From Owenia fusiformis (Eukaryota > Annelida > Polychaeta > Sabellida > Oweniidae), in assembly GCA_903813345.2 (NCBI GenBank), contig CAIIXF020000003.1, positions 21,840,931 to 21,904,930 on the forward strand: DNA of 64,000 bases. The letters are read 5' to 3'. The notes beneath the pieces were generated by a model, which made no database searches, was not told where the DNA came from, and saw only the letters and a program-made list of their open reading frames with translations. The position numbers and the translations under genes were made by a program. Positions 1 to 53,540 of this stretch are shown here, piece by piece. The number at the start of each line of letters is the position of its first letter. Positions within the stretch are counted from its first letter, which is position 1.

Positions 1-1279
1 ATGATTTTGCAAGTCACCTAGCTAGTTCCAACCCACACGAATTGAAAAATCTGCATTCTTTGCTTTTAGACAACGTTCACATTGAGTATTGTGCTTTAAA
101 CCAGGGATCAGAACCTACAACCTCATGCGTACAAACCTATATTATCAAAGAGGCCCCCCGAGAAGCCGTTCATGACATCATTGACGTAGAGGCTTTATGT
201 TCTACCCGTAGATTACATTTCAGATTTTATCCATTCAGTAATATCAAATGCCTAAGCATAAAATCTACATTTGTAACATGTCAAAATCTGAATGAGTGAA
301 TTTTTGACCCGTTGCCATTAACATTAACGAAATCAACCAGCCAAAACAATAAACAGATACGTACTCAACAGGCACCCTTGGTTCACACCGCTTAATGCCA
401 AAACTACATATGATCATGATAGTACGATACCATTGAAGTATACAGTATTCATGATCATTACATATGGAGTATCTAGCTACTGTAGTGCAAGCACATGTAT
501 CCATGAATGTATAGGTAGCTACTTGTACAAGATACTTATCATTCCAGAAACATGTCTGAGAAGATTTCTATCACAAATGTTGGCAATGTTGAATATTTTA
601 AATATTTCTCAACAAATAATATTCACCTGGATCTTTTGACGCTTTACCTACCGATTTAAAACGATTTATAAAAAATCAGTTGCATTAACATTTGCAATAC
701 ATAATCAGTAATTTAAAGTACATAACCCTGAGATCCAGAGAATGGCAATCAGATGAAGCTCCCTTTGAAAGGGAAAGTAAAGTATTAGAAAGGGCATTTA
801 CTATACCAAGCTATACTTTTGCAATAAAACTACAAAGGTCTGATTTCCGCTTTCGTGCTACATTAAAAAGAGCAATACTAAAACATTAGCCGGTGAGTGC
901 TATAAACCTGTTAAACTGAGGAAAACATAAACTTTAATGACTTTAACATGTTAATATAGGTGAGGTAAACATAAAGCAAACGCAGTCACTTTTATATACT
1001 GGAGAATAAATGCTTACACTCTTTCAAAAAGCATTTCATTATAAAAATTCATTTGTGATTTTGTCATGTATTTAAATATTTTTCTTTGAGTTTCTGGCTT
1101 TTAACTTATACCATGCAAAACGACCTAGTGAAATAAAACGATTATTAAGCCATTATGTTATTATTTGGGCAAGGCTCTTTTTATTAATCCTTTTCAAAGA
1201 ACAACGTAACAAAGTACAAGAGACTCCATTGAGCATTGAATACCATGAATTAATAACGCTTAAACATTGTATGTTTCAG
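1..1279. other. Upstream sequence of the TPR gene; no supported exon
   Basis: AT-rich sequence with only short open frames and no recognisable domain. It ends in a good splice acceptor (TGTATGTTTCAG, ending at 1279), so it is most likely intron, with the first exon(s) of the downstream TPR gene either hidden here or left of the window. Confidence 0.5.
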
Positions 1280-4200
1280 TTGAAGAGGCGATAGCTAACG
1301 ATATACAACACAGTGACCCAGTTGATGTAGATGACAAAATTCAAAGCAGATTGACAATGGACGACCCTCAGACCGCAATCGATGAGTCTGACGTTCCAGA
1401 GACACCTGAATTATCACGGAAGATAGAATACGAAGGGGATATATCTTCCAGTGAATGTGGATCTATAAGGGTTGTAAACAAATCGCTTCCTCCAAGACGC
1501 CCTCTAAACTACGAATCCGATAGCTCCAGTGATGGAGGGAGTATGAGACTAAAGGGGCCAAAAACTCCTGAAATGACTCGCAAAGTGGAAGAATATTTTG
1601 CAGCCGCTCTTGAGATGCATAATTTAACTGACAGTGAATATGAAACCACCGGTGATGGCGATGAAGCAGTCACTCTAGGCAGAAATGCGATACAGGGGAT
1701 ACTCAATTCACGTAATACTGAGATAGCCTGCAGTGAAATAGATGGATATACAACATTGACTGAGGAAGAAAGAAAACTAATCATGAAGACGATGATTGAA
1801 AAGCTTAAAGCCGATAAGGAAGACGACACGATGGTGAGTGATGACGAACAAAATCATGAGGAAGATATCAGTGCAATGGTTGAAAGTGAGGAAATGACAG
1901 TGAATTTAAATGAAAATGCTGACAACTTGCCTGAATCGGATCAAAATCTTGCCACAACCTCTTCAGATGACCTATCATCAAATCCTTCTAACAATGATGC
2001 AGAAGTTATAAACGAATCAAATAAGGAATCAGCTTGTGAAGTTGAGGAAATCATTATGGATTTATCAGCTCAACAAGTTAATGTTAATGATACTGCTGGA
2101 GGAAACGCAGAGGCGATTATGAACATTTCTGAGAGTTCAGACACTGAGTCGATACCTCAGCCACAACATGACTCTGGTGCCGAACTCTCATCTAACGTAG
2201 AAGAGGAGAATAAAGAAACACTGCCTGTCACTAGTGAGGTCGTTTATGAAGTATCTCAGATTGTGGAAAACACAACTCTAGCTAGTGATATAACTGACAC
2301 TGATGATAAGTTAAATAGTAAGACGGGAACCCGATCTGTAGAGAAAACGAAGGAATCCAGTGAGACTATGGATACTAAAATACATAAAACAGATGATGAA
2401 AGGACATTAAATGGTGCTAGTAACACAGCTGATGAAAATACTCAAAATAAAATCCCCGAAACAGATGCAACAAGTTCAAGTGATGATGAATTCCAAGACA
2501 CTGTTGAAGATATATCCGAAGAATCAAATAATACAAAAACTAGTACCAGTGTGAACAATATTCCATCTGTTAATGATGAAACCACCAACGACATCCAGAC
2601 TAATGCAAGCAATATTGTGAATAGTGATGAAGTATCTGATACAATAGATGAAAACATTAATGATCCAGTTGAAGAGATAGAACAGTTAGCCCGTGACCTA
2701 GACAATAACAATCTTAGTGACGAGGCAAAAGACACAGTATCCGAATCTATACAAGTGAAAAAACAACCTTATTATAGTGTGTCATATGATAATAAACAAG
2801 ATGACACTGACCAAGATCAGTTACCAGAAACAACAGACATTCCTATTGTTGATGGAACGCTAAAAAGTGACGTAGTACAAAACGATGCACCTACCTCTAA
2901 AGCTGAAACTAAAAGAAGCGTGATATTAACTGATCAGTTATCAGAAAGTAGCCAAAAAGAAATGAACAATAATACCAAACGGTATGAGGATTCAGTTCTG
3001 TCTAAACTTGATGCTAAGTCGTTGGAACAATACAAAGAACTGGAAGATAAAGAGGCCAACTGTGTGAAACAGTTGAAGGATATGTTATGTAAAGGTGACA
3101 CTGATTTAAACTATCAGGCGAAGATACTTCAACGAATAGGAGATATACATCTAGAACGGGGCAGCTTGTTAAAATCTCCAGATTCGTTTATCAACACTGC
3201 TGCCCTCTATAACGCTGCATTGGTTCGACACGGAGACGAATACCAAGAGGATAAAATACGAACAGCATTAGAAAACCTAGAGACAATATTCCTTACACAA
3301 TTTGCTCAACGAGATTCAAACCTGTTGGAATTTGACATTGACTTTAGTAGCTTCCATATGAAAATGTTACAGCTTATACGAGAGCATGCCCAAGTAGAAG
3401 TCAGGAGTATTACACAACTATGGGACTCTGAAGTAGATAACGATTTAGAAAGTATAAGACATCGTGAGATCATAATTGCTGAGAAAATCCGAGGTTTGTA
3501 TAGCCAGATTACAAAAGATATGACCCATTTTATCAGACAGCTTATTTTTGAATGTTTCAAAACGCTTGGAAGCGCCCCTTGTAGGTATGCAATACTTGGT
3601 TGTGGTGACATAGCTAGGAATGAAATGACGCCGTTCTCTGACTTTGAGTATGGGATCCTGTTGGAAGAAGACGGTAATATTGAAGAACACCGGGAATTCT
3701 TCAGGAACCTCGCTAGATTGTTCAACATGAAGATGATGAGCCTTGGAGAGACTGTTATACCAGTTCTGGGTATAACCAGTTTGAACCGGTACGACCAGCA
3801 CGATAATGACTGGTTCTATGATACGATCACGCCAAATGGTTTACGAGTCAGTGGCAACATGCCATGGGAGGGAAGAAATCCTCTCGGAATTCGTGGGGCG
3901 TCCGGTAGGCGGAGCTTTGAACTAATCAAAACCCCCCGAGAGCTAGCATTCCTGCAGACTCAGAATAATCTTAGACAGAACTTCGAGACGGCCAAATCTT
4001 TGAGTACAGTGAGTCTGCTGGAAGGTGACGAGGCACTGTTCAGAGAATATGAAACCACCCTTGCAGAATTCTTCACCCAGATGTCAGGAAAAAATATTTC
4101 ATCTGAAGCAGTTGCAAGAGGACAAAAACTACTCTATCACGAGGTCGATCAGTACAACATGAACCTGGAGTCCTCAACGTTCAGAACTACGGGTGATCTA

Positions 4201-6855
4201 TTAGAGGTGAAGAAAGAAATCTACACCTTACCAAGTAATATCTTGAACAGTCTGAAACACATCCACAGGTTGGTTTCCAAGAACCCCTGGGACATCATAG
4301 ATGAGATGTTACAAAAGAGGCTACTGAACGATGAAGGAGCTCACAACCTGAAGCTAGCCACCAGTATCTCGCTATTTTTGAGGCTGAGGACATATGTGCA
4401 CAATGAAGAAAAGCGGGAAGTTGTTGACTACCAGGGTTCAGAGGAAATTGATATTGCGTCAGTGTTGCTAGGGGAACGTCAGGAGATATTGAGGCGGTTC
4501 TACTTCACCATGCAGCCGCTACTCACGACGTTAGCCTACAGCCGTGTCAGTAATGAAATCCCCCAGCTGAGACATGGAATTTTCTACGATGACACCCACT
4601 ATAGCGCGGGGCTGGCCAACAGGAAATTGTTCCATTATGACAAGGCTATTGGTCATCTTGAGAATGGTCTTAGGAACTCTACAGAAGAGGACGCTGAACG
4701 CTACTTCCTGTTTCATTCCTCAGCTGTGACGTATGACCAGGTAGGGAGGCACAGAGAGGCTGTGGTCAACTATGAACACGCTCTTGAGCTGAGACACAAA
4801 ATAGTTGGGAAACCATTAGGGAATCTACAGATTGCTTCAACATTATGTAACCTTGGTTACGCGTTTATCAGATTGAGGAAGGCCCAGCAGGCGATCACGT
4901 GCTTGGAGGAATCCCAGGAGATGATACAACAGATGAAGAGTCATTTCCCAGATGCCAATGAAGCCTGTTTATCGGTGGATGCTCTATCACTCAACAACCT
5001 AGGCCTGGCGTATGAAAGTCTCAGGAACTTCCAACGTTCAATGGAGTATTATGAGGACGCCTGTAGGAAGTACAAGGATGCCTTCTTTTTCAACAGCAAT
5101 CTGGATATTGCTTCGAATCTCGACAATCTGGCTAGAATATATGGGAAGCTTGAATACTACATCGAAAGTATCCCGTTTCTGGAAAAAGCATTGAAGATCA
5201 GAAAGAGAGTATTTGGCTATGATACTGCACGACCAGAGATTGTGGAATCCCTCAACAATCTAGGATGGACATACCAGAATCTCAACAACTTCCCCAAGGC
5301 AATAGCTTACTACATGCAGTCCCTGATCCTCACAAGGCAGATATATGGTACACAGAGTGCAAGTCCAGAACTTGCCCAGACCTTGCATAATCTGGGTAGA
5401 TCCTACCTCAGTATTTCCAACTATGATCGCTCCCTTGTGTTCTTTGAAGAAGCAAGAGATATCTACAAGAAAATCTACGGGAATGATCGGTCCAGTGCAG
5501 AATTCGCTCACCTGCTTGGTAACTTAGGTGCAGCATACATTGGAAAAGGTATGCACAAAAAAGCGATGGAATGCTTTGAGCAAAGCTTAGAGGCGGATCT
5601 GAAGTTCTTCGGAGTTGACACCGCACAGCCGAACATCTCACTGACGTTGAACAACTTGGGCAACCTTTACTTCATCCTCAGCTTCTACGAGAACGCTCTG
5701 AAGTGCTACGAACAGTCGCTGTCGATCATCAGGAACGTCCACAGTATGTCAGAGTGTCGCCCGGCCTCTTACTGTCTCACCCTCTGCCAAGTGGTCTGCG
5801 TTCTCCTCAGCATGGAAAAACACCAACTAGCCAAACAATACGGGGAAGATCTGAAAGAGGAAGCGGCGCATCTGCTCGACCACCAGAAAGCTAACCCTGA
5901 GCTCTGCATGGCTTTATCAAATGTTGGCTACCTGCATGTGTGTATTAACGAGACCAAAGACGCCATCTTGTATTACCAACTAGCACACAAGTTGTATGTG
6001 CAGGTTGATAGCCAGGATCCATCCCAAAAACATGACGATGATATCATGAGCTGTTTAGATTGTTTGGGAGACTGCTTTAGGGTGATTGGGGACACTGGAG
6101 GCGCCATTGAGAAGTATCAGGAGAGCCTAGACATGAAGACAAAACTCTACGGTGATGAACCTAATCCAGAGGTAGCTGCAGTAAATAGCAATATTGGAGA
6201 CCTTCACATGGGAAATCACAACTTTGACAAAGCAAAGGCCTGTTTTGAGGAGACATATAAGGTCTGTAAGAAGCTTTATGAAGGAAAGCCACATCCAGAT
6301 GTAAGTTCCGCCTTGTCCAGTTTAGGGTTTGTTCACATGATGCAAGGGGTCAACGAGTCAGCCCTTGACTACTACCAACAGTCCATAGACATGAGTAAAT
6401 CATACTACGGAGAAAAGAGCGCACATCCCGATATAACATCATGTCTGGATAGCAAGGGGAACGTATACGAGACCCTAGGAGACAACGATAATGCATTAGC
6501 ATGCTATGCAGAATCTCTGGAGCTAAAGCGATATATGTACGCTGGAAGTTACTGTGCAGATCTGGACTCATCTCTGAAGGCACTCGCAAGGGTATGTTGG
6601 GCCATGCAGGATTATGGGAAAGCTTCGGCTTATCAAAATGAAATTGTAAAACTCAAACAAGAATCAGAAATCCACGATAAGACAGAAATCCAAAATGCAA
6701 TTGATGGTCCACACGATACGATCGAGATTGACACCAAGCAAAAACTCGATGATGAATCGCACGCTGTTAATGGCGATACCGATATTGATGATAAAGAGGA
6801 AAAGAATGGTGTAAATGAAAATGGCGAAGATGAACCATCTGAATCACAGTGCTAG
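1280..6855 (+). CDS. Large DUF294-like nucleotidyltransferase / TPR repeat protein, single giant exon (5' partial)
   Basis: One uninterrupted frame of about 1,860 codons ending at TAG 6853-6855. The open frame begins with a TTG inside a splice acceptor, so I start the exon at 1280 (entry phase 1); the first in-frame ATG is at 1357 and would give 1,832 aa. Roughly the first 560 residues are acidic, Ser/Thr-rich and probably disordered, with two similar TPE(L/M)(S/T)RK motifs. Around 3590-3660 lies a nucleotidyltransferase-like block (GCGDIARNEMTPFSDFEYG) resembling the DUF294 / GlnD-type N-terminal domain; the Dh[DE]h metal-binding pattern is kept as D-F-E. From about 4560 to 6640 come more than ten TPR units at about 42-residue spacing, with NNLG, A..YYE.AL and kinesin-light-chain/nephrocystin-3-like features. 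The C-terminus is again acidic. TPR scaffolds bind proteins; the substrate of the putative transferase domain is unknown. An AATAAA lies at 6889. Confidence 0.85.
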
Positions 6856-10810: not shown

Positions 10811-11094
10811 TTACTTTTCATTGGGGTCTTTAGGGATTTTGAGAGCAACATCGGCCTTCTGTACTGCATTCAGAGTTTTAGCAAGAAGACCTGCAGTAGC
10901 CTGGCCACTTTTCTTGGATCTCCAATCGCGCAACATCTGATATATCATTTCATACATCGACTGGGAATTGTCGTGTTCAAAATTATCCAATTGTCCGTCA
11001 CTATATCCAAGCTCTCTACCAAGCTTCTTCCAATATTTCCCAGTATGCCTTGCACAGATATCTATGTCGTTATTTGTTATTTTACGCTGTGATT
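10811..11094 (-). CDS. RIPK1-like: Exon 13 of the RIPK1-like gene: death domain and stop
   Basis: The acceptor TTTTCCATTCCAG precedes 11094. The exon encodes a six-helix death-domain signature: GKYWKKLGRELGYS, then QLDNFEHDN, MYEMIYQMLRDW and GLLAKTL. These align position by position with the C-terminal death domain of vertebrate RIPK1 (GK.WK...R.LG, QI/QLD, VYQML..W, LA..L). In RIPK1 this domain recruits FADD, TRADD and TNFR1. The frame ends in TAA at 10813-10811, a few residues beyond the domain, as in RIPK1. Confidence 0.93.
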
Positions 11095-14000
11095 CTGGAA
11101 TGGAAAATGTTCTCTTTTCTCTGAATCTTCCACAAAAGCTGGGTGTTAATTTTTGATTTGTGTATACATGATATCATTGATAATGAGTTAATTAGCCAAA
11201 TTACTAATTCAAATCAACAAATTAAAGTTTATCAAACACTTTGCAGTGGTCTCCCCAGCATTAAAGCAAGTGGGCGCAGCACTCACCTAAGATCATGAAA
11301 ACAGCCTTGCACCCACCTGAAAAATCCATTTGCACCCACTTGAAAATGAGAAAAATCATGAAAAATTGGCATATTTTGACAAATTTTGGCCTGAGTTGTG
11401 AAAATGAGAATTTTGCACCCACTCGAGAAAAAATCCTGAGGAGATCACTGCTTTGTAATATCAAAAAAACTTACTGGTTATCGTTCCCTTTATAACTTTC
11501 GGTGGTTTCCTTCCACCCAAGTTAATATTTGTTCCTTGAATGTTGATGTTCCCACTGTGTATATCAATACCACTAGAATTCAATGCCCCAGACACTGTAC
11601 TCTGAACATCACGCATGATGTCACCAACATTCAGATCAACCACCCCATCAGGATTGCCGACAACCATGAAGTTGTTATTCCCAATCTGAATGTTTCCAGC
11701 TCCACCAGCATTGTAGATACGTGTCTCTGCTCCAGATTCTAGAAAAGTTGATGTTTATTCAACTACTGTACATATGTGCACATGTATATAATAATATGAG
11801 GGTTATTCAATAAACACTGTGAAAATGCATTTTCATGTTCATTAAGGAAAAGAATTAATTTAATTTTTCAATGTTTGAAGATGTGCAAATGTAAAAAGTA
11901 TAACTTGATTCCATTATAAACATTGGATATGTGAACATTTTTATTGAATTACCCTTGTGCATGTACAGTACATGTTCAATATGAACATGATCCTGCAGAA
12001 ACTTATAGTAGCTATTTGTGCATAGGTAAAACTTATTTTTGCCCAAGCTTGCTGATATTCAGAATTTGTGAAATCATAACCAATCAAAATAAAACGTTGA
12101 CAAAATGTTTCGTTCTTTAAATAGCGAGATCAATAGTGCAACAAAAGGTAACAAATCGATTAAAATATAAGTTTTTCTTTCTCACATATTACAAATATTC
12201 ATATTAAAAGTCTAATATTTAAAGTCATACAAGTAGTCATACATACTGTGTTTATGGACAATGTCTGGATTACGCTCCCCACCTGACCTTTGACTCTGAA
12301 ATAACATGATTCACTTATTGAATGATGCAAACCTTACAGAACACTCGTTATAGTCATATTCATGTTATAATAATGTACTCCTGATATATTACTTGTGATG
12401 TGTACATGCAAGTCATGATATTCATACAGTACAATGTTTAACCTTTATCACTTTTCAAAATTTCCTAAAATGATTCCATAGAGCTTAATTTAGTGGATAA
12501 CATTAAATATGAGCTTACATTGATTATATGAGAACCATAAATAGTCCAGTAATTAATATTTTCCTGAAAAGTGGTTATCTCCTCACCTTTTTCTTTGCCT
12601 CTTCCTTCTCTTTGTGAATGCTGTCATCCTCCATATCCTCATCTACATAATCGGGAAGGTCATCCACAGGTGTTCCACGTGTGTGGCGAGGCTCAAGTTT
12701 CACTCCTACACACCGGTACAATATAAACATTAATACATGCAAGGTATTTAACAGTATTAGTATGTCAATGAGACCACATAATTTTGGAAGTGGACAGGTA
12801 TACCATAAAACAGAACAAAATAACATCGCTGCTATGGTCCTGATTCATCATATATTAGATGTTATAGATGAATAGACAACCATTCTGGAGGAAGAATACT
12901 CTAACCAATGGAGTAAATGAAATACAAAGACTTGATAGGGAAACATTACATGATATTTAATGTCATATGATGCATTTTTCAACCCATCACCGAATAAGAA
13001 ACATGAAAGAGATTTTATAGTGAAACCTATTTTACCGAAAGGTCCTAACTCTGGTTCTGGCTGTGTTTCTTGCATACTCTTGTATTTATTGCTGTTATCT
13101 TCTCTCATTTCTACATCTGAAGCAAAACAAATAATACACTGTTCACTTGGAATACAGTTAGGCACATAGCCGGAGGGTTTGAGCGAAAAATTCTTTCAAA
13201 AACCTGGGTTTTTCACCAATCTTTCGGCTAAACTTGTCAAAAGTAAATCCTCTTGGAATTTTATAAAAAGTCAATCCTGGCTACGGTGCCTGATAGTGTA
13301 CACTATACTGTACAGTACATGAATGTATATCCTACACATGAGCTACAGGGTGTACTTCAGAAAAATATAGGGATAGACCAAGCGCTGACAAACTATATAA
13401 CCTCATACAATTAAATGTACAGTTTTGTATTGAACATAAATGCAGCATCTCTCTGGGTTGTTTTCTATTTGCTGGTGTCATACAGGAAACAATTAGCCTA
13501 CTTAAATTAACATGTAACAATTCAAGCTAACATCAGAACAGTAGCTACTATGGTACCCTTGCTCTAACCATGGTAAATCACTGAGTTCACATCATTTAAA
13601 TCTGAATAATGTCATGTATTGCAGCTGTAGTTTATGAAAACCACTAATGTGAATAAACATGATATTAAGTCTTTTCAGAATATTTATACAAGAACACAAA
13701 TGTGTACAATATGTCCCCACCAATGGGTGATCCCGTCAAAAGGTTATCCTGAAAATGAGTAGACAAGACTTTACTGTTACAATTTTCGGGTGGTAAATGC
13801 AAAATGGCCACCTTAAAATTTACCCAGAATGCCAAAAAATTAGTCAGCTCTAGATATTTTCATACTAAGAACCAACCCTGAAAATTTGAAATTGATCCAT
13901 CAAACAGTTAACCAGAAAACGCGGTAAACAAGACTTTACAGACTGACGGAAAAATCCAAAATGGCTGCCTTGACATTTGCCCAGAATGCAAAAAACTTAC

Positions 14001-17000
14001 CAGTTCTAGATTTTCGTACTAAGAATCATCCCTGAAAATTTGAAAATGATCTACCAAACAGTTCACCTGAAAACGCGTAGACAAGACTTTACAGACAAGA
14101 TTTTGACGGGTGATCCTGTCAAATGGTTAATCCCTGAGTAGACAATCCAAAATGGCCGACAATAAAAAAGTGATTATTAGTTTTAGCTGATTTCTTTTTA
14201 CAAAATTATCACATAAATACTGTAAACAATAACATAGGCTTTTACAACAAAGTACACCAGAAATTATTTATAAAGCTACGTAGTTAAAGTATGAAAACTC
14301 AAAAACAACGTTCAATATGATACAAAGTATTATAGCGTGCTAACTTTTCTTAAGACATTCAAAATGGCTGCCATGACTGAGCTAACAGGTCTTAGACCTA
14401 ATCAGATGTAGAATGAAGTGAGCTGAACAAGATTTTAAAGTTTTACAAGCAACCATGAAACCATTTTTCTTAATGTTTGCAGAAAGAGGAGGGAAAGCCC
14501 CAGAGTTTCAAGATGACAGACATAATTACCTCTCTTGCTTACCACCTTCGTTCGTTCGAATTTTCATCGGCTAGTTATAAAATACTACACTTCGATGGGA
14601 TGTTATAATTGATATAGGCATATTCCGTACACCTTTCTTTATCTTGATGTGAAATGAGAAGCTATGATATTGGTTAACATGCCAGAAATGAACATAATAT
14701 TATTCGAAGCGTATTTCGAAAATTTTGAAACCGCCATTGATGACGTCATTTGTTTGTCGACTTTTGACCAATCAGCGACCGTGTCATCTCAATACAGATT
14801 TACATTATAAGCGTATGTCATCTTTGAACCCTGGTGTTTCTCCCCCTCTGGTTTGCAGACAAGGATTTTAGCATTTGACTTCAAAATGGCCGACAGGAAG
14901 TAGGTATCAAGCTAAAAATTTTCGTTCACATCTGTATGTACTCATAAGTTATCCCTGAAAATTTATCTGTAGAGGTTTTGAAGAAAAGTGCCGGACCTAC
15001 GGACGGACGGACAGATGGACAGACAGATGCGCCTAGGCCGACAATATGGTCCCACACTATGTGAGGGGGGACATAAAAAATGGAGTAATTACAGTTAAAT
15101 TAACCTATAATACTGATTTTACATTATCTCACCTGGAGCATCCCTTCGAACATTTCGTGGTAGGTTGCTTTTTGGTCTGGCCCCTCCGTTTTGCACACCG
15201 TCCTCAACATCCATATTCTCAGGTAGTGTAGCAAGCCCAATGTCATAGTGCATCCCTCCAGTAACCCTTAAGGCGGCAGCTTCCATGTTTTTTATTGTGT
15301 TTTCAGGTCGGGCCCGGATACCATGGTTACCAGTATTAGTGGCGCCACCTGGTGAGTTTAATGACATTGGGGTTGATTCAGGGGCAGCACCTCTGACATC
15401 TCGAGGCTGAAGAAAAATTTCTCGTGGATTTTCATTTTCTTGGGGCAAAGGCTTTGAGTTGTTCACCTCATCATGAACAACAAGATCATTAGTTGGCACA
15501 TAGGGCTGTGGAGGTTGATTCCGTACTTGTTGCCGTGGTTGAGGTGAAATACCATCCCACTGTATTGCTTCCTTTGGAGTAAGACTCCTTGTAGCAACAT
15601 CTCCAGGTTCCAATATTCCCCTCTGTTGACCAGATATTGGAGGTCTCTGGTTGCTACCTATTAGAGACTCATCCTGTTCCTCTGGTTGCCTCTTTGTTGA
15701 ACCTGCAAAAAGTGAAGGCTCAATTTGTTCAATAATTATTGGGTCTCAGGTTTTCATGAATTTGAAAATAAGCAAAGTCAGGTTTTCTAACTTCTATGAA
15801 ACATATATTTCATGTACAAGACAAACATAAAAACTATGAACTTATCATAGTATGGTCACTCATTTGTTGTGACTTTATGAGCAATTCAGTATAACAAAGA
15901 AATCCTTAAAACTCAAATATATATTATATGTACACTGTATGTTGCTTCTTCTGCTCTCCCTAATGTTTTAAAGATACATGTTGATATAAGACAAACATAG
16001 AAAAATGGGATTAAATGTACCTCCATGAAGTCCCTTAGCTGCACCATCTGTACGAAGACCTCCTCTAGGTAACTGCTGATCACCTGATGCTACCATGTAA
16101 TCTAGAAATTCAGGCACAGGTGCATTGCCAGCCCTGGCAGCCTGTTCTTGGTAGTTTTGCTGAACTTGCTGTTGATTTTGCTGCTGTGCTACTGACTGCG
16201 ATTGTTGAGGCTGTATATGCCTGCCCTGTAACACATAAGTTCAGATAAATCCCATATTATCAAGATTACCATCAAAATGGTCAAACAAACAGAATTCTAC
16301 AAAGTACATGAAAAGCAAATAAAATTTATGAACTGTACCGATACAATGTACATTTTGATATGTTTGTTATATATTGTCACACTGTGATTGTTTATTTTTG
16401 AACTAGAACAGAGCATCTCCATGGAGTAGCAAATCCCAACAAAACATGTAAAGATAAATAGCAATGATCTTGAAAATTTCTTCTAGAACAGAGCTTCATT
16501 CCCCTTTTATGTAGTTACACTCATATGAAATTTAAATCAAATCCATCAGTGGTAATTGAAAATTACGAAAAATACCCATTTCGAAACTCAGCTGCCATCT
16601 TGAAAATTTCTTTGCACCATGCAGGGCTCATTTGTCCCTAGGCATGGTCATATAAATAAAATTTGGACAGAATCCCCTCACTGGGCATTTGAGTTACATA
16701 AATGGTGGCCATTTTGAAATTAAGCTGTCAACTTGAAAATTTCTTCTCAAGCAGTGCTTCTTTGTCCCTAGGCATCAGCATATAAAATAGGAACCAAATC
16801 CGTACACTGGTATTTGAGTTATCTACGTAGGAACAAGTATTTTATGAAAAATGGCAGCCATTTTGAAATTCAGTTGCTATTTTGAAAGTTTCTTCTTGAG
16901 CAGTGCTCCTTTGTCCCTTTGGGCACCAGCATATAAAATTTTAAGCTAATCAGTCAACTGATATTTTGTTTATCTAAGATTACATTCTTTTACAAAAAAT

Positions 17001-20000
17001 GGTGGCCATTTTGAAGTTCAGCTGCCATTTCGAAAAGATTTCTTGAGCAGAACTCCTGTGTCCGTCAACGAGTATTCGAAATATCAAAGATTACATTTTT
17101 ACAAAAAATCGTGGCCATTTTGAATTTAGCGGCCATATTAAAAATTCTTTCTCAAGCAGAGGTCCTACATCCATAAGATATAACCCTGTAAAGTTTGAAT
17201 CAAATTTGTCAACCAGTATTTGTGTTATCGCCTGGATAAACAGACATACAAACTGACAGCTTCTATATGTCCCTCAAACTTCGTTCAGTGGGATTCTGTT
17301 TGAAAATAAATGAATTGAATATGGGGTTGTACCATTTCCTGTAGCAACTGCACTGTAGCTATGTGCTGTGCATCCTCTGTCATGTACTCTGTCATACCCT
17401 TTTCTATGAAGTTCTTCAAAGCTGAAAAAGTGTTTCAATTTAATATATCATATATATTATGAGGTTATATAAATGGTTGATTCCGTATATCGTGTTTATA
17501 CTCAAGTGAGTATATGATATACAGGAACGAGTGAATATATCATATACTCACGAGAGTATAAGGATATACAGAATCAACCATTATAGCGATCTTATTATCC
17601 CACAGCGACGAATCTTTAATCAATAGAAGGTTAATCTAAATTCAGCAGTTGTATATCAAGTCGAGGAGTTGTATACGTTGCCGAGGAGTTGCATACGCTA
17701 TCCCGGAGTTGTATATCGTTTTCAAGAGTTATATACGATGAGTGTTGGTTTTATATTGCAGTTATACAATGCTATTATACAATCATATAACATGCCTTAC
17801 CTTCAAATGTTGGTCGTGTCTCGGGATTTGGACTCCACGATGCCATCATCATGTCACACAAGAACTCTGGGAAGTTATTAGTAATGGATACCATATTTGG
17901 TCTTTCACCTCCTGTTACCATCCTTGTTACCTCAAATGCATTTCGGCCTGAAATATTCATCAGTTCCATTATATCATGTGGGGATTTTCTAAGTCAACAG
18001 GTAAGGCGTGATCAAAAAAGAATTTATGCTTTAAATTGACCTAAATGGTAATTTGAAACAATATTTTGAAAATATTTTGAAACAATAATTTGAAAAACAT
18101 ATCATGAATCTTTTTTTTAATAGGTTTTTAATTTCAAGGAGGGAAAAAGTATTAATTTAAAAAATCTAATATGACTGAATAAACTCATACGAATAGTGAC
18201 CTGACAGATTGAATGGTTTACCTTGGTATGGCTGTTTCCCATTAGACCCTATCTCCCATAGGGTTATCCCGAATGCATAGACATCATGGTATTTCTCTGG
18301 AGGGCCTTGTAAGTTACGCCATCTTTCAGGTGATGTGTGGGTGAATGAACCAAACTTGTTGAGCTCTGCACTCAATCTTGTGCTATGGCGTTGCGTGTAT
18401 GTCTTCCACTGGGAGAGACCAAAATCCGCAATCTGAAAATATGGTTTTGAAAAGCATTGTTTTACAATTTACTATGCCATATTTAGTGAGAAGTGGTTTA
18501 GACGCATGTTTTATGCTGTACATATGTGCATAATAAATCTGTTACGTGGTTTTCCAGGAATCGCAATGACAAGAAAGTGAGATGCCACCTGCCCACCCGT
18601 CAAGCTGACGACAATATCGTACCTTTTTAGGTACGATAAAAAGAATCATGATTATTGCTATCTCACCTTATTTATTTCTCAATGGGATGATAATTTACAT
18701 GTCAATCCTAATTTTTTTATATTTTGGTCAAATATGTACATATTTTATCCTTTTAGTAAAGGAGAAATAGATTTTCACCAAACTTATTTCGCTTGTGAAT
18801 ATGTGAATCCTTATTTTAATTTATGGGGCCAGGTCTTGCATCATTTTTACTGATGCCAATATCAAGTGGGTTTAACAAAAAACTGAATATCGGAACACCT
18901 CTCTAATCGGAACACCTCTCAATGTGAACACTTTTTGGTTAAATATTTTGATCTGCTGCAGACTTTCATGTTAAAGAAACCTTGAAAAGTGTCCATCTGC
19001 CAATGCCAATCTGAACACTTTTGGTTGATGGTCCCAGTGGCATTCGGTTAAGACAGGTTTTACTGTACTTTAATTAATAATGAAAAACAGTGATATACTG
19101 AACTGGCCCCTATTATAATACATACCTTTATGTCAAAAGCATCAGTAACCAACAAGTTGGCAGCTCTGAGATCCCGATGACAAATAGTAGGTACATTCGT
19201 GTGAAGGTAATTCATTCCCAATATTGTCTTATACACAAACTTCACTATGATTGGCAGAGGAACTTGACGCTTCTTCAAAAAGCTATCCAATGATCCGTTT
19301 GCGATGTATTCAAACAAAATAGCATACATTCCTGGTTCCATGATGACACCAAGAATACGTAAGATGTTTTCATGCTGCAGCTTCGCCATCTTTTCTGCTT
19401 CATTAAGTAACTTCTTTTTCTCACTGGAAATTCATAAATATTCAATCATCATAAATCTTGAGTCATCTTGGTCTTAACACTATGATGTCATAAGGGAATA
19501 CCTACATGTAGTATTGAAACTAGGAGTCCCGAGATTAATCGAATTAATCGATAAATCGGCTCGTTTTGTAGCGATCCGAGTGAATCAATCTTGTGGCTAT
19601 AATATCGCTGATATCGATTATCGTTCTGAAAGAGATTTAAGTCTATACATGCCTTATTTTGGTCTAGAAATGGAGAAAATGTCAGCTGTCGAACAGTTTG
19701 TTTATTTTTTTCTGGATCTATGACACGCCGCATATCAAAATACGAGCGTCGCCTTAATTTAGATTTCTGGTCAATTCCCAACACCGAAAAAAATGCGAAC
19801 ATTAAACTAATTTATTAATATCTTCAACAAACAGGGATTAAAATAAGCCAGCTTTACTTTTTGACATTTTAGTAGCGAAGTAAGAGACCAAGCTATATAA
19901 ACATCCGTATTCTGCCATTTTTAATTAGTTCGAAATGTTCATTTTTTATTTTCATTGCCGTTCAACAAATTACCGAAATTGTGTTGGTGGAGTTGTGTAT

Positions 20001-22146
20001 ATTTCAGTCAAATTCGCGTACAGTATTATTTTAATATTGACTTCCTTGCTTTATGAATTGAATCGAATCATTAATCGAATCGTTAGGTAAATATCGAGAT
20101 TTGAATCGAATCGGTGAAAAATGAATCTTGGGACCCCAAATTGAAACCATAAAGAGTAAGACATAGTATACTATTTACTATTAAAGGTTAAATCTTGAGT
20201 CATCTTGGTCTTAAAACTATGAGGTCATAAGGGAATACCTACTGTAGTATTGAAACCATTAAGAGTAAGACATACAGGGTGTCCAATAAATAAAGTGAAA
20301 GATATTGTAACTTTCTTAATAATGTACCAATCTTGATTTTTACCTTTAGTCTGTGAATTTAAAGCGTCTTCTATTTGATTGGCCAGAGTTGTGGTTGCTA
20401 TACTATAGCAACTGAAACAACAAAAAGGTGGGGCAAGTTTGTTCACGTCACAACTTTCCAAAACATATTTATTCTTTCTGATAGTTTTATTCATACTCCC
20501 AGGTCTATTACTACCACAAATACAATATAAAACAGTCCTAAAGTCCCATTGTTATGAAAATAAGCTATTCAACATAATGTCCATCTCTAGCTATACACTT
20601 CTTATGCCTATTCACCCACTCTCTAAACACACTTTCAAACCCATTCTTGCCCATTTCCTGAAGTTTTGATACAACATGTGATCTGAGTTCATCAGTGCTT
20701 CCAAATTTATTTCCTCTCAAGTCACACTTGAGTTCTGCAATAAGTAATAATCATTGTGTGCAAGGTCTGGGGAATATGGAGGGTGTGCAAGTAGGGGTAG
20801 CCCCAGTGCCCTAATAAATTCACTAGTGAGCATAGCTGTGTGTGAACTCAGCAGATCACATGTCTTAGCAAGACTTCAGAAAATGGGCAAGAATGGGTTT
20901 GAAAGTGTGTTTAGAGAGTGGGTGAATAGGCATAAGAAGTGAATAGCTAGAGATGGACATTATATATGTTGAATAGCTTATTTTTATAACAATGGGACTT
21001 TAGGACTGTTTTTATATTGTATTTGTGGTAGTAATAGACCTGGGAGTATGAATAAAGCTATCAGAAAGAATAAATATGTTTTGGAAAGTTGTGACGTAAA
21101 CAAACTTGCCCCGCCTTTTTGTTGTTTCAGATGCTATAGCAATCACAACTCTGGCCAATCAAATAGAAGACGCTTTAGATTCACAGAATAAAGGTAAAAA
21201 CGTTTGGGCTAAAAACTCTGAAAATTTCATCAAGATTGGTGCAATATTAAGAAAGTTACAATATCTTTTACCTTATTTATTGGACACCCTGTAGAATACT
21301 ACATATTTACATTCAGACTGAACAGCTACATAGATAGTAAAACAATGTAGATATCCAATGCAGTCCATAATGAATGAGACAATAGAGATTCAGACTTACT
21401 CTTCAGATATTTGTTGAGCATCTTTTAGAACTTTAATAGCTTTCATTCCCCATTGTTTATGTTTTACCTAAAAAATAAAGATGTTTGTCACTTTATTTAT
21501 CAATGCTGTTTTGGAAAATGATGATCCACTCCTAGGTTTTTTGAGGTTTAACAAGTGCTATAGTTTTGCAACAAATGTTTAAAAATATAGATGTTACAGC
21601 TAATCTTAAGGCGCTGATAACCTTTAAAGCTTTATCAGAAATGATTAGTACTCTGTCTCCATCACAGGTTAAATGCATGAGTGTGCCAAGGGAAGACATT
21701 ATGTTGAAAAAGTAACTATAACAGTAACTATAGGGCACAGTTTATTAGGAAGTTATCATTAAATAATCAAACAATGTAGTTTAAATTATACTGCAGTTCA
21801 TCTGTAGGTACACTGTATCTTGAAAAAAGATAGAATTAAAAAAATTATACAGGAATATGTACATTTAATTTAACATAACTTTCAAATTGGCAATGTAGGA
21901 ATATGAATGTACTGTTCATGCTAGTGCATATCGTCCTATTAATCCAACATTATTTCTATTCAAAAGAACAAGCCACAAAACTTCAAAGGAACTACATGTA
22001 TTAACGTAACAAGTAATACTCTCAGGAAACTGACTTACCTTGAATACAGTGCCAAATCCTCCCTGTCCAAGTTTATCATCATCTGTATATGTGTCCAAAT
22101 CTGACCTCTTCACTATTGCAAAATGATGTTGTCTTTCGGCTGGCAT
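10811..22146 (-). CDS. RIPK1-like: RIPK1-like receptor-interacting protein kinase (kinase, RHIM, death domain), 13 coding exons
   Basis: Coding exons in gene order: 22146-22039, 21467-21400, 19423-19126, 18432-18222, 17947-17801, 17421-17333, 16225-16021, 15702-15133, 13116-13036, 12705-12587, 12295-12247, 11738-11475, 11094-10811. All have GT-AG junctions and every phase joins, giving 2,493 nt (830 aa plus TAA). The kinase lobe covers about residues 10-280: glycine loop LGQGGFG at 26-32, lysine of AIK at 48, probable helix-C Glu67, HRD 141-143, DFG 161-163 and an SPE in place of APE. A Gln/Pro-rich linker follows. The RHIM core IQIGNNNFM is at 665-673 and a death domain fills about 745-825. 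In vertebrates this order defines RIPK1, which switches between NF-kB signalling, apoptosis and necroptosis by RHIM amyloid and death-domain assembly. Human RIPK1 is 671 aa; the extra length lies mainly in the linker. The catalytic loop HRDLRAAN is Src-like. Orthology is inferred from the architecture and from RHIM and death-domain similarity. Confidence 0.93.
11244..11450. mobile_element. Short TIR element (hAT-like ends) in the last intron of the RIPK1-like gene
   Basis: Inverted ends CAGTGGTCTCC and (opposite strand) CAGTGATCTCC are flanked by an exact 5-bp direct repeat CTTTG (11239-11243 and 11451-11455). The 207-bp body repeats the phrase 'tgcacccac' three times. The CAGTGGT end resembles hAT-type ends, but hAT normally makes 8-bp duplications, so the superfamily is uncertain. 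Confidence 0.7.
11475..11738 (-). CDS. RIPK1-like: Exon 12 of the RIPK1-like gene: RHIM
   Basis: This exon encodes the RIP homotypic interaction motif. The key tetrad is I-Q-I-G at residues 665-668 within NIQIGNNNFMVVG, preceded by IYN as in vertebrate RIPK1. RHIMs stack into amyloid-like filaments joining RIPK1, RIPK3, TRIF and ZBP1. About 50 residues later a related Gly/Asn/Ile-rich stretch (GNINIQGTNINLGG) could extend the amyloid core, though it lacks the tetrad. Acceptor TTTTCTAG and donor GTAAG are both present. Confidence 0.9.
12587..13116 (-). CDS. RIPK1-like: Exons 9-10 of the RIPK1-like gene: acidic linker
   Basis: Two short exons (13116-13036 and 12705-12587) encode a charged, low-complexity linker between the kinase and the RHIM. 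No domain was recognised. The second exon is acidic and then Lys-rich (DDLPDYVDEDMEDD followed by KEKEEAKKK). Phases of 1 in and 1 out, then 0, match the neighbours exactly. Exon 11 (12295-12247, 49 nt) follows. Confidence 0.8.
13725..14160. repeat. Three-copy degenerate tandem repeat, unit about 160 bp
   Basis: The phrase GTAGACAAGACTTTA recurs at about 13760, 13923 and 14078. Each copy also carries 'aaaatggc', a 'cagaatgc.aaaaa' segment and 'ccctgaaaatttgaaa'. It lies in the 2-kb intron between exons 9 and 8 of the RIPK1-like gene. Confidence 0.75.
14480..15065. repeat. Dispersed repeat family A, copy 1
   Basis: This segment ('agagtttcaagatgacagacataattacctctcttgc...' in sense) recurs in diverged form at about 40620-40925 and 47530-47800 (+) and, as a short inverted piece, at 28080-28155. 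Shared landmarks include a 'cgtatgtc(a/t)tctttgaa' block and an 'aataatattattcgaagcgt' block. It ends in a GGAC-rich run (gacggacggacag) and 'ccgacaatatggtcccac', common at ends of dispersed repeats in marine invertebrates. No coding capacity was found. Confidence 0.7.
15133..16225 (-). CDS. RIPK1-like: Exons 7-8 of the RIPK1-like gene: Gln/Pro-rich intermediate region
   Basis: Exon 7 (16225-16021) is Gln-rich (QQQNQQQVQQN). Exon 8 (15702-15133, 570 nt) is Pro/Asn-rich with no recognised domain. In vertebrate RIPK1 the equivalent intermediate region carries ubiquitination and caspase-8 cleavage sites; I cannot identify equivalents here. This region accounts for most of the extra length over human RIPK1. 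Acceptors TTTTTGCAG and GTGTTACAG and the donors are clear. Confidence 0.85.
16440..17260. repeat. Degenerate tandem repeat, unit about 140 bp, family B
   Basis: About five diverged units, each with 'tggc(c)attttgaa', 'ttcttcttgagcag', 'tttgtccctaggca', 'cagcatataaaatt' and 'gtatttgagttatc' segments. It is located between exons 7 and 6 of the RIPK1-like gene. The same family occurs in opposite orientation at 47870-48470. Confidence 0.8.
17470..17584. repeat. Near-perfect palindrome in the RIPK1-like gene
   Basis: 'aatggttgattccgtatatc' on the left is mirrored by 'gatatacagaatcaaccatt' on the right, with 'gagtatatgatata' and 'tatatcatatactc' around the centre near 17530. The arms are about 55 bp, enough for a long hairpin in the intron between exons 6 and 5. 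Confidence 0.85.
17645..17744. repeat. Five-copy 20-bp tandem repeat
   Basis: Units of the type 'gagttgtatacgttgccgag' follow directly after the palindrome, five imperfect copies in about 100 bp, each with GAGTTGTATA or a close variant. Confidence 0.75.
17801..18432 (-). CDS. RIPK1-like: Exons 4-5 of the RIPK1-like gene: kinase activation segment and C-lobe
   Basis: Exon 4 (18432-18222) opens with IADFGLSQW, then HTSPERW as the APE-equivalent and DVYAFGITLWEI, the F-helix Asp motif. Exon 5 (17947-17801) has ERPNM, then FLCDMMMASWSPNPETRPTF, the conserved C-lobe W.xxP..RPTF motif with its helix-I arginine. All elements of an active kinase C-lobe are present. Confidence 0.93.
18535..18645 (-). 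repeat. Dispersed repeat C, inverted copy
   Basis: The stretch containing 'gacaagaaagtgaga', 'gtcaagctgacgacaatatc' and 'gtaccttttt.aggtac' is the reverse complement of 40935-41050. It ends in a small hairpin (ttatcgtacctaaaaa/gtacgat). It sits in an intron of the RIPK1-like gene. Confidence 0.7.
18885..19070. repeat. Repeat with a CAGTAAAACCTG-type end
   Basis: Contains 'cggaacacctctc', 'gaacacttttggtt' and the terminal 'aagacaggttttactgta'. This is the same family as the complete short element at 37409-37569 and the fragment at about 35640-35710. Confidence 0.6.
19126..19423 (-). CDS. RIPK1-like: Exon 3 of the RIPK1-like gene: kinase core with HRDLRAAN loop
   Basis: Encodes helix C (E67 in NEAEKMAKLQHENILR), the hinge (ILFEYIANGSLDSFL) and the catalytic loop HRDLRAANLL. 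The catalytic Asp143 and the Asn148 magnesium ligand are present. The Lys normally two residues after the Asp in Ser/Thr kinases is replaced by RAA, as in Src-type tyrosine kinases. Vertebrate RIPK1 instead has a Lys-Pro-Glu-Asn loop. Confidence 0.93.
19446..20273. repeat. Local direct duplication of about 85 bp, one copy split by the hAT-like MITE
   Basis: 'aaatcttgagtcatcttggt...gggaatacctac...tagtattgaaacc...aagagtaagacata' occurs once as 19446-19520 plus 20140-20166 (interrupted by the element) and again, intact, at 20190-20273. The duplication is therefore visible on both sides of the insertion. Confidence 0.75.
19521..20139. mobile_element. hAT-like MITE with 8-bp target duplication
   Basis: An exact 8-bp direct repeat ATTGAAAC (19513-19520 and 20140-20147) flanks inverted ends TAGGAGTCCCGAGATT and (opposite strand) TTGGGGTCCCAAGATT, 13 of 16 matching. 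The interior holds inverted runs of 'attaatcga'/'tcgattaat'. An 8-bp duplication is the hAT-superfamily signature. The copy is 619 bp and has no transposase. The flanking host sequence is itself duplicated (next repeat entry). Confidence 0.8.
20275..21291. mobile_element. Palindromic mariner derivative with transposase fragments
   Basis: The 1,017-bp element is bounded by TA (20273-20274 and 21292-21293) and by perfect inverted ends CAGGGTGTCCAATAAATAA. The arms pair over about 430 bp. Both encode the transposase C-terminus (FESVFREWVNRHKKCIARDG): the left arm on the minus strand (about 20690-20575) and the right arm on the plus strand (about 20870-20942). The minus strand near 20790-20735 also has PYSPDLAHNDYYL, the mariner motif holding the third catalytic Asp. 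It is a foldback derivative, non-autonomous, located in an intron of the RIPK1-like gene. Confidence 0.85.
21400..22146 (-). CDS. RIPK1-like: Exons 1-2 of the RIPK1-like gene: start codon and kinase N-lobe
   Basis: The ATG at 22146-22144 is the first in the exon and is preceded by an A-rich leader. Exon 1 (22146-22039) encodes 36 residues ending in LGQGGFGTVFK, the glycine loop, and then donor GTAAGT. Exon 2 (21467-21400) encodes VKHKQWGMKAIKVLKDAQ, including the ATP-binding Lys48. No signal peptide is present, consistent with a cytosolic kinase. Confidence 0.9.
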
Positions 22147-43477: not shown

Positions 43478-45679
43478 GTACGTAGTATGATTGTAAGAGG
43501 ATTGTAAATCTCGCTGTGACAATTAATCTTGGATTACCAAGGTTTGAAACTGGTTAGCGAGATTGTGACAATTAATGTTAGTTGAACGGTATATAATAAA
43601 TTCAACAAACTACGCCCAGCCCCTTTTAAAAGTTAAATAAAAACGTTTAGAAACAACGTTTTACCAATCAATTTTTGTTTTATTTTGTATCGAAATTATG
43701 ATCTTATACTGCTTTTTTAGCCGAAAAAAGAAGCCACAGAGTTTGACCAGGGAGGCAAAAAAGTATGGCTTGGTAAGTAAATCATATGACGTCATATGAC
43801 GGTAACCTAGTCCTTTCATTTGACTTATCACGCCCTCAGAATTGCATACATCACAAATCTGAAGTTTATTAACTTAGTTTATTAATTTTCAATTGCATGA
43901 TTGTTGGATTTAAGCGATATATCGAAACAAGCAAATTTTGTATAATGATCTTCTAACTCAAGTGAAAAACATATCATTTTATAATCATTCTCCCCTATAA
44001 AAATTGGGAAAATCGAGGTTCTCTTCTTTCCAATTTGGTCAACATCCTTCTTAAGATCCTTTGTAAATATGTATCTTATCACATGTACAGGTGTGTGCAA
44101 GAAACTGTTAGAATATGGTGCCTTACCTCACAAAGAGAATTCTGATGGTGTAACACCATATAAAGATGTCGTAGATGAGAAAAATGAGGAATTTGATGAA
44201 CTGGGTGCTCTTTTACTCACACATATGCCAAACGATGAAGCTAGAAAGATTCATATGAGACATAGGGACAAAGGTGGAAATATACAGGAAGCCGAGATAA
44301 CAATCGAGAAGCTGCTTGAAGCAGACATGGTAAAAACTGTAAGAGCTCTTCTCGACTGTCTCATTGATAAACAACCTGGTGAAGAAGATGCATTAATACA
44401 TTTTGACCTACTTGATGCCGACTCTAATGGCTATACTCCCGATGAGGAAGACGACTTTGACTACAAGGCAAAATCAGGACTACATGAACTGACATATTAT
44501 GGAGATATGGACTTACTATATCATGACGCTGTCAGGCTATTCATAGACTACAAATGGAAAGCATTTGGGAGAAGTAGGATTATTCGGGAAGCGGTAGTAT
44601 ATATCATATCCATATTTTTTCTGACTTTCTCTGTTGGAGTTGCATGTCAAGCCCCTGATCCACTGGTCTATGACACTCCTTTACAAGTTACCCGGGCTGT
44701 TTTTGAGGTTTGTACGATTATTTTTGTACTGTACCACCTTTTGTCTGAAATCAAAGAGATGACGAGAAACAAATTGGGCTACTGGAAAAGTTTTGAGAAT
44801 TTTTTTGATTTGCTGAGTATTTGTCTTCTTCTGATTGTCATTCCGCTCAGACTGTCAGCCGTCAATGCACAGTGGTATTCCTATGCTCTTGGATACATCT
44901 GTTGGATAATGCGAATTCTCAAATATGCACCTTTGTCAAGGCGAGCTGGCGTGTATGTTCACACTCTTTGGGTGATTATCACACGAGATATTGTTCGATT
45001 CATCATACTGTTTACCATCATCTTACTTGCATTCAGTGGCAGTTTTCAGTTGTCTCTTCGTGGCGAAGGAAAATTGGCAAAACTTAACTACACGATGTCA
45101 GTGTTCGGATATATGTTCATAGGGATACGTACACTGGTCGAACAACAACCAGTCATTGACTACACACATGAGACTAATAACTCAAATAACGTCCTCTCAA
45201 TTCTTATTATGGTTCTCTACCTTAGTGCCTGTGTCATTGTTCTTCTCAATCTGCTTATAGCACAGATGAACAATCGCTTCAATTGCATTCAGTATCAATG
45301 CCAGCGAGATTTGGAGCTTAGTCGAGCAAAGATTATATCACGGATTGAGCAAAACGCGACTTTTTCATGCTACTACAGATCGTGGTGCTACAAGAAAACT
45401 GTTAAGAATAATAACTACAAAAAAGAATTGTTGAAGTGGGAAGATCCCCCGCTGGACTCTAATGAACGAAATGTGCAGGAGGTTAGAGATACGGTCAATG
45501 AAATTCGTGATTGTATGCACCATTCAAAAGCCGATTGCAGCATTCGAAACCTTAATGCTCAACTAGAAAGTATGAATGAAAGAATGAGGGAGATTGAGAA
45601 GTTGCTTAAGCGGCAAGGATCCACAAGTGCTCTACGCGAAAGAGGTGTTAGATATCAGTCTAACAGTAGCGTCTGTTAA
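42638..45679 (+). CDS. TRP-type cation channel with charged N-terminus and ankyrin remnant, 3 exons
   Basis: Exons 42638-43477, 43721-43772 and 44091-45679 join in phase to about 826 aa. Residues 1-280 are Lys/Glu-rich with no recognised domain. Exon 3 enters inside an ankyrin repeat (VCKKLLEYGALPHKENSDGVTP), leaving one to two repeats. It continues to a pre-S1 helix (VRLFIDYKWKAFG), six membrane segments (S1 about 465-483, S6 about 664-690), a pore region with FGYMFIGIRTLVEQQP and, after S6, LLNLLIAQMNNRF. The membrane part is typical of ankyrin-bearing TRP channels (TRPV/TRPA-like); I cannot fix the subfamily. A short helical C-terminus ends at TAA 45679. Most ankyrin-TRP proteins carry six or more repeats, so the N-terminal ankyrin domain is largely missing here; the exon 1 start (ATG 42638) is provisional. 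Confidence 0.75.
44091..45679 (+). CDS. TRP channel exon 3: ankyrin remnant, six TM segments, pore
   Basis: Acceptor CATGTACAG. Membrane segments in order: VVYIISIFFLTFSVGVAC (S1), VCTIIFVLYHLL (S2), FFDLLSICLLLIVIPLRL (S3), YALGYICWIMRILKYAPLSR (S4), FIILFTIILLAFSGSF (S5), pore loop, then LIMVLYLSACVIVLLNLLIA (S6). A soluble tail with RIEQNATF and a final helix follows. No frameshift is seen. Confidence 0.9.
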
Positions 45680-45700
45680 TTTCATCATATAAGATACACT

Positions 45701-52235: not shown

Positions 52236-53540
52236 GTCATGTATATCCCTAGTTATTATTGGTCTTCAAGACATATTCCCTGGTATTATGCAACTTAATT
52301 GGTCATTCTGGAACATTTGGGTACATGTTCATTAATGACCTTTCAGAGCATTTTAGTGTAAAATGGAGGAAAGTAAAACGGTTGCCAATCCTTGCAATCA
52401 TTGTATTACCATTGCAATGTTTTTACTTATTGAATATATCACTTAGTTTTGTCGGTTGAGAACTCTAGCAATCGAGGTTCATTAATTTGTGATCCACTCG
52501 ACTCGTTTATGACTCTGTGTGTCAATTACACTAATTGTCCGAGAGATCTATTAATAATTATACTATGTACACGCTATTAATGAAATGAATTGTCTTTTTT
52601 GTCTTCTCTCTGATCTGATATTTTATGTGAGTTTTAATCATTAAAATATAACTTAAATATTGTTTTATCACCTTTATACTTCATATTTGATTGCTGGATG
52701 TGTTTGTACATCGCCCGAATTACGGAGTAACAGCTTGTGTTTTGACCACTTTTTGCCTCATAATGCCCGATATGCGGTTAGCAAATTCAAACAGTATATT
52801 AATATATATTATTTTAATTGCGGCTTAATGCTTTTATGTACTTGAAAGAATTAGACGAGACTCAATCTTGATTTTTCAGAACAGACGTTTCTGTCACTTT
52901 TGTCAAGTTTTTAAGATGTATACTAATATTTGCCGATACTCCTTCCAACCCTGCTTCTCCACAAAATAGCTTGGTAATATTTTCATGTATGTTTACCTTA
53001 ATTACTTTGGACAAATTGGATGTTTCTTAAAACTGTCTAATTGGTCTTGGTGAACCTTTTGAGGGGAGTGAAAGAATGCATAGACAAATTAAATTTTTCC
53101 TTACGAAGTCCCATACAGTTATACTGTATTTAATTCCCAAATTAACAATAAGCTAATTATATTTTTTGCAGGAAACTGAAGCGATTTGTTTACAGCTACA
53201 GTTATGCCAGAGAATTCCACAACAACACCCCTACCAAACAAGATGTGGATAGGCTAACCCTTGAATAAACTGTCCCTTGTTAACCGCATTCAATTCAAGC
53301 AATTGCTTTAATCAGTCTACGGAGAAAGGAATACAGTGAAGAAACGCATCATATTAACAATTTGTTAGGAAAACCAGAAGTTATGTCCATTTCTTTTACA
53401 TTTCAGGGAGAAATAGAGGGAAATATGCATGAGCAGTTGATATTAATAGCATATGTGTATTTGGAATCTGCAACTTGCACCTGTTTGAATTTGTTGAAAA
53501 TGCCATCGTCGAGGGGTGGTAATAACATAAGCATAGTCAG
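52236..53540. other. Non-coding, with one doubtful terminal exon
   Basis: No confident gene. A possible terminal exon (53170-53268) is listed separately. Confidence 0.35.
53170..53268 (+). CDS. Possible short terminal exon, unassigned
   Basis: After an acceptor-like TATTTTTTGCAG, a frame reads KLKRFVYSYSYAREFHNN then TPTKQDVDRLTLE and stops. The composition is protein-like, but I recognise no family and no partner exon, so this may be chance. Confidence 0.2.
   Translation, partial: RKLKRFVYSYSYAREFHNNTPTKQDVDRLTLE

Follow-up and report, generated by a model that had tools for sequence, protein, structure and literature searches.

The window analysed here, a stretch of 64,000 nucleotides from the genome of the annelid worm Owenia fusiformis (C3:21840931-21904930), probably holds a homologue of RIPK1. 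On its minus strand, from 22146 to 10811 (C3:21851741-21863076), exons for a protein kinase are followed by an exon with a full RHIM tetrad (IQIG) and an exon for a C-terminal death domain, in the order of RIPK1. An earlier note, made from the letters alone, had proposed this arrangement, and our searches confirm it. Each of the three parts, taken separately, matches RIPK1 first in the PDB (the kinase among the best 60 of 1654 matches). The further claim that a RIPK1-like three-part protein predates the vertebrates is supported by the Pfam, PDB and Foldseek matches given below and, in the available part of PMC12119088, is already in print. Since such genes have been reported in mussels, brachiopods and lancelets, the annelid gene is a further case and no surprise. 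Among the papers that our literature searches listed, none was a dedicated report on annelid RIPK1; the supplementary spiralians of PMC12119088 may already include an annelid.

Gene model

Eleven exons (A-K) of 68-570 nt each were identified, all of them open. They are listed here from the 5' end of the gene, with the two gaps that interrupt the model.

22039..22146, minus strand: exon A, N-terminus with the start codon, followed by the glycine-rich loop GQGGFG; donor GTAAGT; Pfam kinase
21400..21467, minus strand: exon B, beta-3 lysine (MKAIKVL); top-scoring frame-fitting candidate of its gap
19126..19423, minus strand: exon C, alpha-C glutamate, hinge and catalytic loop HRDLRAAN
18222..18432, minus strand: exon D, DFG motif, activation segment (SPE instead of APE) and C-lobe
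17801..17947, minus strand: exon E, end of the kinase domain (ETRPTFE)
17333..17421, minus strand: exon F, C-terminal extension of the kinase; weak donor GTACAA, score -2.1
16021..16225, minus strand: exon G, intermediate region, glutamine-rich
15133..15702, minus strand: exon H, intermediate region; end phase 1
12587..12705, minus strand: exon I, intermediate region, acidic/lysine-rich; end phase 0; no direct join to exon J
11739..12586, minus strand: gap I-J, phase mismatch; 6 short candidate exons fit, none supported
11475..11738, minus strand: exon J, putative RHIM (IYNAGGAGNIQIGNNNFM) and glycine/asparagine-rich tail; start phase 1, end phase 1
11121..11474, minus strand: gap J-K, phases do not match; both top-ranking short candidates begin within a 17-nt direct repeat
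10811..11120, minus strand: exon K, C-terminal death domain and stop codon; start phase 2

The earlier note had described thirteen exons whose phases all join. Nine of them, exons A-I, do join in phase with GT-AG borders and yield 605 aa without a stop, but eleven were identified in all, and two junctions do not fit. At I-J, an end in phase 0 meets a start in phase 1. At J-K, an end in phase 1 meets a start in phase 2, whichever of the two best acceptors of exon K is used, 11120 (score -3.3) or 11126 (score -3.2). A thirteen-exon model therefore needs one short exon in each gap. When the splice-score thresholds were set at the weakest accepted sites of the model, six frame-fitting short exons were obtained per gap, so that no candidate can be selected with confidence; the direct repeat that holds the starts of the two best J-K candidates is present in three copies. 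Because of the mismatches at I-J and J-K, a single transcript for kinase, RHIM and death domain is a prediction. The identified exons encode 605 + 87 + 102 = 794 residues and further pieces would lie in the two gaps, which makes the previously suggested length of about 830 aa plausible. Judged by phase, skipping of exon I would leave exon H in frame with exon J.

Two alternative sites that would mend the J-K phase were considered. A donor of exon J at 11471 was rejected (score -8.9), and an acceptor of exon K at 11118, whose score of -6.0 is below those of 11120 and 11126 given above, was passed over as the less likely one. An Rfam search of the window gave no matches. Within the intron between exons B and C, identical peptide stretches (e.g. 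GFESVFREWVNRHKK) are read on both strands at 20225-21191, which suggests an inverted, transposon-like insert.

Kinase, RHIM and death domain

Of the Pfam checks proposed in the earlier note, two gave strong matches: the kinase domain was matched by PF07714 (PK_Tyr_Ser-Thr; E 6.7e-54, 183.3 bits) and also by PF00069 (E 2.2e-40), and the C-terminal domain by Death (E 1.2e-15, 57.9 bits). The RHIM profile (PF12721), in contrast, stayed under its cut-off of 20 bits, with 16.8 bits, E 0.005 and 10 of 22 positions matched.

The catalytic motifs of the kinase are intact, namely GQGGFG, the beta-3 lysine in AIK, the alpha-C glutamate, HRD and DFG. Among the best 60 of 1654 PDB matches, RIPK1 comes first (3e-42, 148.1 bits), with RIPK4 (1.5e-41, 145.9 bits), RIPK2 (1.9e-39, 138.9 bits) and RIPK3 (3.4e-32, 115.1 bits) also ranking above Src (1.7e-31, 112.8 bits); an EGFR entry reaches 147.5 bits over two matched stretches. 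The ranking of the four RIPKs above Src indicates that the kinase is RIPK-type, and in these sequence scores RIPK1 and RIPK4 are nearly tied, 2 bits apart. The catalytic loop reads HRDLRAAN, against HKDLKPEN in RIPK1 in the PDB alignment, and we take it to resemble that of Src-family tyrosine kinases.

The RHIM tetrad IQIG lies in exon J, between kinase and death domain, with the flanks IYN...NNNFM; the surrounding sequence is TRIYNAGGAGNIQIGNNNFMVVG. A 28-residue query around it found two PDB matches up to E 10, both of them RIPK1 RHIM fibrils at E 0.3, and one of these alignments has a three-residue gap upstream of IQIG. When the whole of exon J was the query, three matches up to E 10 were returned, none of them to a RHIM protein. 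When the 407-residue region was shuffled 20000 times, the bare tetrad arose in 1620 of the shuffles and so is no evidence; together with RIPK1-type flanks it arose in none, this pattern having been picked after viewing the sequence. At the level of sequence, we therefore take the tetrad with its flanks, and not the tetrad alone, as evidence for a RHIM. We rejected another RHIM-like repeat in the exon J tail (SGNINIQGTNINLGG), since 1324 of 5000 shuffles align equally well.

All genome searches covered an assembly of 498.26 Mb in 525 contigs, in which COX1 gave no matches. Of five candidates scored with exon J as query, two were matches: one is the locus itself, the other has E 6.8. No second RHIM was found with this exon-by-exon query, a weak negative. 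The Pfam RHIM profile gave no matches at E 0.001 over the whole genome; this search is uninformative, because its controls were silent and the RHIM of the window was missed too.

In a phmmer search of the PDB, the death domain matched RIPK1 at 1.5e-11, FADD at 2.9e-7 and ankyrin-3 at 1.3e-6. An AlphaFold2 model of this domain, for which the input was six aligned death domains, all from the O. fusiformis genome, had a mean pLDDT of 77.9. Foldseek placed human RIPK1 death domains at ranks 1 and 2 (5.3e-4 and 5.5e-4) and ankyrin G at rank 3 (6.1e-4). The VIA-align Z values of FADD (15.1), RIPK1 (14.9), ankyrin G (14.5) and TRADD (14.4) are less than 1 apart and by the rule of that tool count as a tie. 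Pfam, phmmer and Foldseek thus point to a RIPK1-type C-terminal death domain, with VIA-align tied.

Two further death-domain exons are located at C3:19.28-19.30 Mb (L009:3018-3305 and L010:2866-3155), about 2.5 Mb from the RIPK1-like gene. They share 78% DNA identity with each other, and their death domains are 37 and 28% identical, respectively, to that of the RIPK1-like gene. The two loci can be aligned only around this exon, and a possible coiled-coil exon lies upstream of the one in L009. L009 also has an IQIG frame (L009:4762-4995) not far from its RIPK1-like death domain; it was taken as chance, since no convincing splice signals were seen and the similarity of the two loci is confined to the death-domain exon.

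Identity of the gene

The part order of the annelid gene is that of vertebrate RIPK1, from which it differs in several details. Human RIPK1 has HKD and DLG where the annelid kinase has HRD and DFG, and the annelid RHIM has about three extra residues before the tetrad. At 794 aa or more, the annelid protein is also larger than human RIPK1, which has 671 (length from the available part of PMC9573974), and the annelid intermediate region is longer and Q-rich. RIPK3 combines kinase and RHIM as the annelid gene does, but has no death domain, and its kinase match is 33 bits below that of RIPK1 (best 60 of 1654 PDB matches).

It is unlikely that two adjacent genes have been misread as one, the first for a RIPK-like kinase whose tail is Q-rich, the second for an IMD-like adaptor with RHIM and death domain. 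In flies, IMD has a RHIM-like motif and lacks a kinase. The death domain is common to IMD and the annelid gene, but in the latter the kinase exons stand in line with the RHIM and death-domain exons, on the same strand, and are probably linked to them. The kinase block of exons A-I does join internally and not to the RHIM exon; however, the RHIM exon also fails to join the death-domain exon, and because J-K mismatches as well as I-J, a phase mismatch is no specific sign of a gene border. Moreover, the join from exon H to exon J is in frame, the death domain is most like that of RIPK1, and the parts share both the strand and the RIPK1 order.

We consider it distinctly improbable that exon shuffling assembled kinase, RHIM and death domain independently, into a protein that works like RIPK1 and is not its orthologue. 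The similar kinase scores of RIPK1 and RIPK4 (best 60 of 1654 PDB matches), the unusual HRDLRAAN and SPE motifs and the RHIM insertion relative to RIPK1 would agree with such an origin, but each of the three parts finds RIPK1 first in the PDB (the kinase among the same best 60), and homologues with the same three parts are described for mussel, Lingula and lancelets in the available text of PMC12119088. A decaying RIPK1 copy is very improbable, for although two junctions are out of phase and the donor of exon F is weak, all eleven exons are open, the catalytic motifs and the RHIM core are intact, and the genome search with the RHIM exon brought up no convincing further copy (two matches, of which one is the locus and the other is at E 6.8). 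A RIPK1 homologue is therefore the reading that we retain.

In the part of PMC12119088 that was available, RIPK1 homologues with kinase, RHIM tetrad and death domain are published for lancelets and for several spiralians, among them Lingula and the zebra mussel (XP_052232845.1). The C-terminus of the zebra mussel protein activates NF-kB there in a RHIM-dependent manner. Compared by description in that part, the zebra mussel (Dreissena), Lingula and lancelet proteins share with the annelid gene an N-terminal RIPK kinase, a V/I-Q-V/I-G tetrad and a C-terminal death domain; the mussel and Lingula are spiralians, as annelids are. Other papers, each within the portion of text available, give further records of these domains: an earlier SMART survey placed the RHIM in vertebrates only (PMC9573974), no RHIM was seen in amphioxus and starfish RIPK1 (PMC11507063), and RHIM proteins are mentioned for Drosophila and Branchiostoma (PMC9444067). 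For nemerteans, no RHIM was found in a transcriptome or genome, and a DEATH-domain Imd was reported in Lineus ruber (both in the available part of PMC9835746).

Candidate partners in the same genome

The search for signalling partners that the earlier note had called for was successful in part: a FADD-like gene and a DED-DED-caspase stretch were found, but a RIPK3-like kinase was not, which is a weak negative. The FADD-like gene lies on C7, with a DED (3.3e-12) and a death domain (5.5e-16) about 0.9 kb apart; in the PDB its death domain is closest to FADD (1.1e-11), with RIPK1 at 3.9e-9. The DED-DED-caspase stretch, also on C7, carries SHGE and QACRG, and its parts are linked by order and strand alone. 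Counted exon by exon, the genome has 67 death-domain matches (the RIPK1-like gene included), 37 caspase-domain, 14 TNF-domain and 12 DED matches. One cluster at C6:35.60-35.92 Mb consists of interleaved death-domain and caspase-domain exons.

The query for paralogues ran from the DFG motif to the C-terminus of the protein (639 residues), with the kinase N-lobe outside it. Of 50 scored candidates 19 were matches, made up of eight within the RIPK1-like gene itself, three other death domains and eight kinase segments of 29-36% identity; this exon-by-exon search revealed no second RIPK1 and no RIPK3-like kinase among the 19, again a weak negative. The profile of the MLKL N-domain (MLKL_N) gave no genome matches, likewise a weak negative, as its control was silent.

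Two Z-alpha matches occur within 3 kb on C6, where an open frame (C6:3515433-3518146, L033) was read over 728 aa and contains three z-alpha stretches. It was rejected as ZBP1, since the part read has no RHIM at E 0.05. The end of this part resembles an ADAR dsRNA-binding motif, and the frame probably belongs to an ADAR-like gene that has more than one Z-alpha domain.

Proposed mechanism and significance

We propose a series of steps, which we infer from RIPK1 biology and the mussel experiment. The death domain would dock the protein on death-domain receptors or on FADD, and the resulting crowding would allow the RHIMs of several copies of the protein to polymerise into a scaffold of amyloid type. 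Scaffold and intermediate region may then recruit the NF-kB machinery, and the kinase could tune signalling from the scaffold by autophosphorylation. A branch through FADD and a DED-caspase would lead to caspase activation and could limit the scaffold. Homotypic assembly is likelier than a RIPK1-RIPK3 pairing because no second RHIM protein was found in our genome searches. The earlier note had suggested RHIM-based death or NF-kB signalling in this lineage; an NF-kB or FADD/caspase output fits the gene content, but necroptosis is not supported, as no close RIPK paralogue, second RHIM or MLKL N-domain was found in these searches, all of them weak negatives. NF-kB or caspase-8-type signalling is thus a better guess than necroptosis.

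A more specific picture can be offered only tentatively, and we regard it as rather doubtful. The annelid RIPK1 may be a stand-alone platform of RHIM homo-amyloid serving NF-kB and FADD/caspase, without RIPK3 and MLKL, with a kinase shifted towards tyrosine or dual specificity (HRDLRAAN), and with exon I and its adjacent short exon as an alternative cassette. The cassette is suggested because exon H, too, joins the RHIM exon in frame.

With the present gene, an annelid joins the molluscs, brachiopods and lancelets for which the available part of PMC12119088 describes RIPK1 homologues. The annelid case fits a bilaterian ancestor that already had the three-part protein, with later loss in a number of lineages. 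Genome and developmental transcriptomes of O. fusiformis are published, according to the accessible text of PMC9977687, and RHIM signalling could be studied in this species without a detected RIPK3/MLKL arm.

Other features of the window and the genome

On the plus strand of the window, a single open frame of 1863 codons (1264-6855) encodes TPR repeats and a DUF294 nucleotidyltransferase domain; the repeats match the Nephrocystin-3 TPR profile weakly, below its cut-off. At 43985-46252, also on the plus strand, a reverse-transcriptase fragment (RVT_1, 6.4e-15) comes immediately after an ion-channel exon (Ion_trans, 2.6e-14). A tandem repeat array at 53284-55319 has long open frames on both strands, with units such as WARILTECGSFPCFGWDKLGKNSHRV.

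Elsewhere in the genome, phosphagen kinases gave 19 matches, which as a marker of the phylum are not decisive. For one of these genes (L016), arginine kinase and taurocyamine kinase lead the PDB matches. Two others, at C1:48609719-48611518 and C10:18524507 (L014 and L015), are near-identical single open frames, which by resemblance we take to be mitochondrial creatine kinases and which are possibly retrocopies; a second, partial copy lies alongside the one on C1. The C-domain of the erythrocruorin linker, a family not known from outside the annelids, has three genome matches above its cut-off. One of them adjoins an open frame that we read as an LDL-A module; up to E 0.01, the only PDB entry matched by this frame is hemoglobin linker 1, at E 0.0025.
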